This document shows positions 8,153 through 37,793 of a stretch of 37,793 bases of DNA, in pieces. Below the pieces are notes generated by a model that was not told where the DNA came from, did not search any database, and worked only from the letters and a program-made list of their open reading frames with translations. Origin of the DNA: an uncultured Flavonifractor sp. (GTDB lineage Bacteria; Bacillota; Clostridia; Oscillospirales; Oscillospiraceae). The stretch covers positions 1 through 37,793 of the forward strand of contig CANAAV010000023.1 of assembly GCA_947346365.1 (NCBI GenBank). The letters are read 5' to 3'. How positions within the stretch are numbered: the stretch's first letter is position 1; each line of letters opens with the position of its first letter. The translations under genes and the position numbers were made by a program.

Positions 8153-8190
8153 CCGCAGAGAAAATCCTCAAAGATTCGTAGATAAAAGGA

Positions 8191-8460
8191 CAGGGGGCGC
8201 GGATGGACTCATCCGCGCCCCCTCAGCTTGTCGAAAAAGTCTCACAGAGTTCGCGCCTAAGGGCGCGAATCAGGTGTGAATTCGTTTTCTCTGACGACAT
8301 GTGCGTCAGAGAAAACACATCTCGGCCTGTAAGTGTACAAGCTGTCCGCTTTAAGCGGACAGCTTGTGTGCGAGGCAGGCCGCAGCAGGCTCGAAAAAGC
8401 GGCGAAGCCACTTTTTCGACAGGCACAGGGGGGTCGGATGGACTCATCCGCGCCCCCTGC
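8191..8460. repeat. structured multi-hairpin repeat, copy A
   Basis: This ~270-base intergenic element lies between the convergent dhaM and ybaK. It opens with a perfect 13-bp hairpin (8193-8205 with 8210-8222, loop GACT) and ends with a near copy of the same palindrome (about 8434-8457). Inside are an 8-bp hairpin with 4-base loop (8250-8257/8262-8269), a perfect 13-bp hairpin with 7-base loop (8284-8296/8304-8316) and a 31-base near-perfect palindrome (8337-8367). CTTGTCGAAAAAGT near the left end can pair with ACTTTTTCGACAGG near 8410-8423, closing the whole element. A diverged copy in the opposite orientation is at 11577-11793. It has no coding potential. It could be a small non-autonomous mobile element, a bidirectional terminator cluster or a structured RNA. 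Confidence 0.8.
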
Positions 8461-11565: not shown

Positions 11566-11576
11566 GCGGAAAAAGA

Positions 11577-11793
11577 GGGCGGGGCCAACTTGGCCCCGCC
11601 CCCAGGCTGCCGGAAGAGGCTGCGCCTTTTCCGGCAGCGGAAGTGCAGCTCGCACACTTGCGGGCTGAGCTGTGTTTTCTCCAACGTACATGCCGCTGGA
11701 GAAAACAGATGAAAAAATTTTCCCGCCTGCGGGTGGGAATTCTGCGAGGCTTTTTTGACAAGCAGAGGGCGGAGCTAGCTTGGCCCCGCCCCC
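11577..11793. repeat. structured multi-hairpin repeat, copy B (inverted relative to copy A)
   Basis: This element lies between the convergent ypeB and the 11799 gene. GC-rich palindromes are at both ends (GGGCGGGGCCA...TGGCCCCGCCC near 11577-11601 and a weaker one near 11767-11791). Inside are a hairpin with the same 13/7/13 geometry as in copy A (11674-11686/11694-11706, GTTTTCTC...GAGAAAAC) and one with the same 8/4/8 geometry (11720-11727/11732-11739). Read on the minus strand it aligns with copy A through shared segments such as TTGTCAAAAAAG, GAGAAAACACA and AAGTGTGCGAGCTG. Several stem positions differ in both arms so that pairing is kept. Confidence 0.78.
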
Positions 11794-31798: not shown

Positions 31799-31961
31799 AG
31801 GCCTTGTTTGAAAATTGTTAACACGTCCAAATGGCGGATCTTTTTCCGCCCGGACGGCGGGGCTTTTCCTTGAAATCCGTCAGGATTCCTGCGTCAAAAC
31901 CCCTTGCCAGCCGAAAAAATCCCTCGCCCTTGGGGATATTCCCATTCTTCAAACAAGGCCT
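31799..31961. mobile_element. MITE, complete copy (~163 bp)
   Basis: Perfect 14-base terminal inverted repeats AGGCCTTGTTTGAA (31799-31812) and TTCAAACAAGGCCT (31948-31961) enclose a non-coding body with internal hairpins (CGTCC...GGACG near 31827-31860). The first ~75 bases recur at 37719-37793. The right flank reads CTAG and the second copy's left flank TTAG, compatible with YTAR-type target sites used by IS5/IS427-like transposases; the left flank here (CGAG) does not match, so that assignment is tentative. No transposase is in the window. The rest of 31533-32270 shows no gene or other structure I can name. Confidence 0.85.
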
Positions 31962-37718: not shown

Positions 37719-37793
37719 AGGCCTTGTTTGAAAATTGTTAACACGTCCAAATGGCGGGTCTTTTTCCGCTTGGACGGCGGGGTTTTTCCTTGA
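37719..37793. mobile_element. MITE, second copy (cut by window edge)
   Basis: It starts with the same AGGCCTTGTTTGAA terminal repeat as 31799 and follows it for 75 bases with only a few differences. Near 37745-37778 the hairpin arms CGTCCAA/TTGGACG remain pairable although the first copy reads CGTCC/GGACG with other neighbours. The right end lies beyond the window. Confidence 0.85.

Follow-up and report, generated by a model that had tools for sequence, protein, structure and literature searches.

The two copies of a structured repeat in the window, the 37,793-nucleotide stretch of uncultured Flavonifractor DNA analysed here, are most probably insertions of a MITE-like element of 160-200 nt with IS1182-type ends into terminator hairpins, which were duplicated on insertion (we put the probability of this reading at about 0.8). 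A preliminary description of the repeat had left three options: a structured RNA, a bidirectional terminator module or a hairpin-ended non-autonomous element. The last is best supported, by locus-specific duplicated hairpins, IS1182-type ends, dispersed copies and the presence or absence of the element at one orthologous site. The terminator module fits the duplicated target, and perhaps one hairpin at the right end of the element (hairpin D), but not the element as such.

On re-reading the sequence, both copies were found where they had been placed before, between convergent reading frames and with the order and geometry of parts then given. The conserved unit of 160-200 nt occupies positions 8224-8424 of the plus strand (copy 1) and 11604-11763 of the minus strand (copy 2). 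Copy 1 lies between the convergent genes for EIIA-man (+) and a tRNA-editing-domain protein (-), and copy 2 between YpeB (+) and a convergent minus-strand ORF of 82 aa without a Pfam hit. Copy 1 begins on the plus strand with a left terminal inverted repeat, CAGCTTGTCGAAAAAG (8224-8239), whose sequence matches IS1182-family ends. Hairpin A, with an 8/4/8 geometry (8250-8257/8262-8269), and hairpin B, with a 13/7/13 geometry and the loop ACATGTG (8284-8296/8304-8316), follow, both recognised from sequence and covariation. Hairpin C was delineated from the predicted fold and covariation and consists of a 13-bp inner stem with a 5-nt loop (8337-8367) and an outer pairing (8324-8329/8376-8381). 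The right end is formed by hairpin D, which pairs an A-tract with a T-tract (8391-8419), and by a right terminal inverted repeat, CTTTTTCGACAGGC (8411-8424), identified by sequence and end-motif comparison. By eye, hairpin D resembles a bidirectional terminator; a terminator scan made no call on it in copy 1, and when the whole of copy 1 was folded its T-tract arm paired with the left end instead.

Copy 2, in which hairpin C and the right end are altered, has hairpin A at 11739-11732/11727-11720 and hairpin B at 11706-11694/11686-11674, both on the minus strand. In the 13-bp stem of hairpin B, the copies differ as had been claimed, with one T-A pair becoming C-G, one G-C pair becoming A-T and one A-T pair becoming G.T. 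The sizes given for the 8-bp stem of hairpin A and its flip of one pair from G-C to C-G also stood, while an A.C mismatch in the same stem of copy 2 (TTCCCACC/GGCGGGAA) had been overlooked. The window holds a second repeat pair of 75 nt (31799-31873 and 37719-37793), which are direct repeats with 95% identity, the second reaching the window end.

Both copies fold far more stably than their shuffled sequences (z of -15.9 for copy 1 and -8.5 for copy 2, with none of 200 shuffles equal), which rules out chance palindromes. A covariance model trained on 41 copies, with copy 1 included and copy 2 left out, matched both, with E-values of 1e-34 for copy 1 (core 8239-8392, 153.5 bits) and 5e-20 for copy 2 (11613-11750, 90.8 bits). 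Palindromes arising by chance or an artefact of assembly thus have a negligible probability: the source assembly is indeed fragmented (44 contigs), but the shuffles, the mismatched-pair controls described below and the occurrence of the same element in a named public replicon record (NZ_AP023416.1) all argue against them. Mechanical ORFs in the window's ORF list overlap the element, which is itself only 160-200 nt long. An annotated 'hypothetical protein' (record positions 376926-377105) overlaps an element copy at L122 26846-27045.

The preliminary description had counted GC-rich palindromes on either side among the parts of the element. We rejected this, since the palindromes differ by locus and the two around a given copy form a direct repeat; as locus-specific direct repeats, they lie outside the conserved element. 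At copy 1, the left hairpin (8190-8223) and the right hairpin (8425-8458) share 94% identity. At copy 2, the hairpin on the right side of the element (11574-11603) and that on its left side (11764-11793) share 90%. At each of the two loci, the terminator scan called one hairpin of the two terminator-like, namely 8223-8192 on the minus strand and 11603-11575, also on the minus strand and with a TTTTT tail; it made no call on 8425-8458 or 11764-11793. When copies from the source genome were aligned, the better-preserved ones had about 200 nt in common, starting with CAGNTTGTC(G)AAAAAG and ending with CTTTTTCGACAG. The palindromes beyond this unit varied between loci but frequently matched on the two sides of a copy.

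To quantify the repeats, the left flank of each copy was compared with the right flank of the same copy and with those of other copies. At a score of at least 14, own flanks matched in 22 of the 60 copies of a first set, compared to 0 of 900 mismatched pairs. These 60 include five places that are most likely not the element (L008 +2488, L024 +300, L122 +18684, L122 +41976 and L122 -41704), which were kept and counted as misses, and the search motif for this set missed L032. A second set was found by a DNA pattern in a genome-contig collection, where 17 of 123 matches were excluded for lying near a sequence end. Here, own flanks matched in 32 of 106 copies and mismatched flanks in 1 of 1590 pairs. 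The repeats measure 14-41 nt and coincide with hairpins. Their length tracks that of the hairpin (r = 0.76, n = 49) and their edges fall close to the hairpin feet (median offsets of 2 and -1 nt), in a comparison from which 4 of 54 repeat pairs had been removed as duplicates. Because the repeats are locus-specific and coincide with hairpins, the flanks resemble target duplications that span entire terminator-like hairpins, and their form and place make the flanking hairpins at other loci putative terminators. Most copies carry no hairpin repeat (38 of 60 in the first set and 74 of 106 in the second). At L013 and L015, the two flanking hairpin copies differ on both arms, in L013 on the outer arm and in L015 by one C-G pair that became G-C.

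At its ends (CAGNYTGTCRAAAAAG), the element matches insertion sequences of the IS1182 family. Allowing at most three mismatches, the left end motif was present in 44 of 54 copies with a hairpin repeat and in 22 of 112 copies without one, a difference to which a Fisher test was applied; the right end motif was present in 40 of 54 and 25 of 112, respectively. Copies without a hairpin repeat instead have a conserved boundary, AAAGCC, which is not an IS-like end. In a survey of 300 genomes from the family of the source organism, 62 were positive for IS1182 domains at an E-value of 1e-6. Among 30 loci retrieved from this survey, seven (L082, L083, L084, L085, L086, L088 and L091) carry CAG(C/T)CTGTCGAAAAAG or a near form at one or both ends, and L087 carries a variant form. 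L064, L265 and L267 also carry this end or a near form, L267 being the same place as L082. The transposases of L086 and L087 score above the cut-off of NCBIfam NF033551 and are thus IS1182; the domains of the partner transposases are Pfam PF13751 and PF05598. Left ends of a second flavour, CAGACTGTAGACAAAG-like, occur at L147, L208 and L251, again following a duplicated hairpin, and the IS1182-domain locus L061 contains a stretch, TCTGTTGACAAAGTG, that is similar to them.

Whole-hairpin repeats also surround insertion sequences themselves: they are exact around L086 and L087 and near-exact around L265. The IS1182-matching ends and the duplicated hairpins, found around the element and these three insertion sequences alike, therefore point to a non-autonomous, IS1182-ended mobile element. 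IS1182 members in ISfinder have target repeats of 0-60 bp. The IS1182 elements L082/L267, L083 and L088, which have these same ends, are flanked by a different hairpin on each side, for which we offer no explanation except later rearrangement; the hairpin pairs compared were those of L082/L267, L083, L086, L087, L088 and L265. The covariance model of the element core had no match in 11 IS1182-bearing loci. The element is therefore no simple internally deleted form of these insertion sequences, and only the ends are common to both.

Domain and transposase searches found no IS1182 transposase in the source assembly, whose completeness is 86%. PF13751 was present in 4 of 16 examined element-bearing genomes, and one IS1182 transposase used as query had matches in 2 of 11. 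A transposase in the same genome is not strictly needed if its source was lost, is missing from the assembly or was transient. The failure to find IS1182 in most examined element genomes, together with the different ends of copies without hairpin repeats, would also suit movement by another transposase (e.g., of the HUH/Y1 type or another DDE enzyme), with the IS1182-like ends having arisen by convergence. We consider this unlikely, as such ends and whole-hairpin duplication coincide both in the element and in IS1182 elements.

Searches with copy 1 revealed many dispersed copies in its own genome, where the covariance model gave at least 26 matches. With blastn at an E-value of 1e-6, 27 of 150 family genomes, in 26 of 106 genera, contained a match, the source genome included, and the covariance model matched in 14 of 117 genomes of the order. 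Six genomes have at least 26 copies each, among them the source genome and four from another family. The covariance-model search of relatives that had been proposed thus uncovered further copies in several families of the order, and the stems of these copies covary; a lack of further copies or of covariation had been named as what would speak against the preliminary description. In the genome-contig collection, the DNA pattern matched at least 120 stretches. Among the 80 matches listed, the titles name Oscillospiraceae, Ruminococcaceae, Flavonifractor, Pseudoflavonifractor, Intestinimonas, Enterenecus and Firmicutes CAG:103, or unclassified Clostridia, Clostridiales, Eubacteriales, Bacillota or bacteria. 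Among plasmid records, the element was found in one, from Vescimonas fastidiosa (NZ_AP023416.1). The element or parts of it also matched five unannotated faecal phage records (MT835961, MT836333, MT836293, MT839839 and MT838656) and nine contigs classed as viral (L256-L264). Two unusual arrangements were seen: at L022 of the source genome (around 1501-1560), two left ends stand face to face and form one long palindrome, and at L027 (around 1501-1600) a short form has both ends and no middle, adjacent to a terminator-like hairpin whose arms reach into the end.

An alternative to a mobile element is a structured non-coding or cis-regulatory RNA kept by the host, whose flanking palindromes would be ordinary terminators. 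Several aspects of the genomic setting argue against it. In V. fastidiosa, counted over approximately 300 kb of the replicon with an incomplete gene table, four of five copies with a hairpin repeat lie in convergent gaps and the fifth overlaps a small hypothetical CDS. Only 2 of the 11 copies without repeats are in convergent gaps there, the remainder lying in tandem or divergent gaps (copy 149504 has no hairpin repeat by the repeat criterion). Copies of the element are thus found in convergent, tandem and divergent gaps, and their flanking palindromes are duplicated locus by locus. The site is not conserved either. Among 30 sibling loci from the genus of V. fastidiosa at recA, two contained the element, one a remnant and 27 neither, with absence judged by the covariance model and by a 230-nt sequence stretch. 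The recA copy of V. fastidiosa is therefore an insertion or a frequently lost element, and not a fixed regulator; it has no hairpin repeat. In one sibling, the loop of hairpin A in the element at recA (L275 1220-1423) is interrupted by an insertion. Beside a flanking gene of another Vescimonas copy, L041, 16 siblings were without the element in the stretch examined, one of these stretches being shortened, but the left gene in these siblings is not orthologous, so they are not true empty sites. Strict empty sites for a copy with a hairpin repeat were not found, the orthologue searches beside L035 and L087 having matched only the genome from which each locus came.

The evidence in favour of a host RNA comes from the core. 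In 41 copies with hairpins A-C, the 34 base pairs were 92.7% paired. Two-sided changes were found in 22 of these 34 pairs and in 198 cells, compared to 61 (sd 6.4) in shuffled and 18-32 in slid alignments, controls that model relatedness incompletely and template-switch correction not at all. The core alignment omits rows that lack hairpin C or in which it is shortened or continues into other sequence (L008, L015-L018, L024, L040, L044, L045, L054-L057 and L123:43466), so the figures for hairpin C hold only for copies that have it. In 104 held-out copies that had not defined the structure (two of 106 rows were removed as duplicates), hairpin B was 92.0% paired, with 318 two-sided cells versus 109.7 (sd 7.2). 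Hairpin C, whose columns are poorly aligned in this set because its length varies, was 68.7% paired, with 166 two-sided cells versus 77.8, and hairpin A, being fixed by the search pattern, was left unscored. Hairpins A-D are joined by conserved unpaired segments in a core common to many copies without IS1182-like ends. Conservation across many genera was seen for two of these segments, CCTCGCAGAG and CGACATGTGCG, among copies that were picked by motifs inside them, and would likewise suit a host RNA.

The balance of G.U and A.C pairs bears on whether the folded strand is RNA. G.U pairs outnumbered A.C pairs 97:19 overall and, after removal of two columns dominated by G.U (35 and 30 of 41 rows), 32:19. 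With the same two columns removed, the ratio was 10:11 in copies from the source genome, and hairpin B of the held-out copies gave 23:13 once its fixed column was excluded. This balance leans weakly towards a transcribed RNA strand. The two mostly-G.U columns favour a host RNA, whereas the ratios without them speak against it, as does the lack of a promoter-like site in a scan of the two window copies. Known Rfam families were also rejected as the identity of the element: there was no match at gathering level in the window, and six relative loci had only sub-threshold matches, the best being mir-15 with 32.5 bits against a threshold of 57.3. Taken with the genomic setting, we regard a host-kept RNA as improbable.

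The preliminary description had read the changes in the stems as selection on folding. The covariation is genuine and was seen again in the held-out copies, but template-switch repair could also yield changes on two arms. It is possible, and of the readings considered beside the main one the most plausible, that the covariation reflects a mutational process in which each arm serves as template for the other (quasi-palindrome correction) and folding is not under selection, which would be compatible with the mobile element. In line with this, paired changes also occur between flanking hairpin copies (e.g., at L013, L038 and L240). Conversely, one-sided or pair-breaking changes in the flanking hairpins number 92 versus 26 paired ones, a count that partly reflects edges outside the repeat, and terminators may be under selection too; quasi-palindrome correction also leaves the conserved unpaired segments unexplained. 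The element offers a clean system for telling selection from template-switch repair as the source of covariation in mobile hairpins.

Returning to the mobile element with IS1182-type ends, we propose that it would be moved in trans, most likely by a transposase of the IS1182 family. The target would be an intrinsic-terminator hairpin at a gene end, chosen by its shape and not its sequence. The 3' ends of the element may be joined at the 5' feet of two cruciform arms, with a stagger equal to the palindrome length, after which gap repair would copy the whole hairpin. Since this repair would place the element between two copies of the terminator, both convergent genes would keep one, and the insertion would probably do the host no harm. 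Such a mode of insertion, in which a whole terminator is duplicated and not destroyed, could let the element multiply between genes cheaply. A more speculative and rather doubtful reading is that of a mobile element that swaps its ends (IS1182-type, perhaps of two flavours, or none), so riding different transposases, and whose structured-RNA core serves either its propagation or host regulation. If this were true, insertion with duplication of the terminator would be almost neutral for the host, and this would account for the high copy number.

We found no description of this repeat in the open-licence literature, where searches with 12-mers and 11-mers of the core gave no title on the element. 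Being abundant in gut bacteria and missing from Rfam, the repeat could confuse analyses of terminators, small RNAs and assemblies. To our knowledge, duplication of a whole flanking hairpin is not a feature of ERIC, REP or BIME repeats, from which we set the element apart by description. Like them, it is an intergenic structured repeat with many copies per genome (as outlined in the available text of PMC3049150 and PMC10969869). MITEs in general include folded small repeats, some of them thought to be mobilised by insertion sequences (PMC10969869, in part). The same holds for the small repeats of pneumococci, which are highly folded and in some cases thought to be moved by IS transposases (PMC3049150, in part). 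Pneumococcal BOX, RUP and SPRITE resemble the element in their high copy number and extensive folding; the ends of RUP are common to an insertion sequence, and SPRITE is terminator-like and enriched near the 3' ends of genes (PMC3049150). The element differs from these by its hosts and supposed transposase, and the duplication of a whole terminator is absent from the available part of the PMC3049150 account; the distinction was drawn from descriptions.

The closest parallels are IS1272 and TnSha1/TnSha2 of staphylococci, which belong to the IS1182 family, have terminal inverted repeats and target stem-loops without a fixed sequence. The insertion sites of IS1272 and TnSha1 are hairpins, in several cases confirmed terminators (PMC4923244, PMC5678879). 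According to the available text of these papers, their target hairpin is wholly or partly deleted, with no duplication. In contrast, the element described here, which is non-autonomous and contains a structured core, appears to duplicate the whole hairpin. PMC5678879 draws such whole-hairpin duplication as a hypothetical pathway b, and within the accessible open-licence literature we found no report of it beyond that drawn possibility. Hairpin targeting of the IS1182 type with loss of the hairpin has thus already been published; what is new is an element with IS1182-type ends that appears to duplicate whole terminator-like hairpins, and so does what the alternative pathway, as depicted in PMC5678879, predicts.
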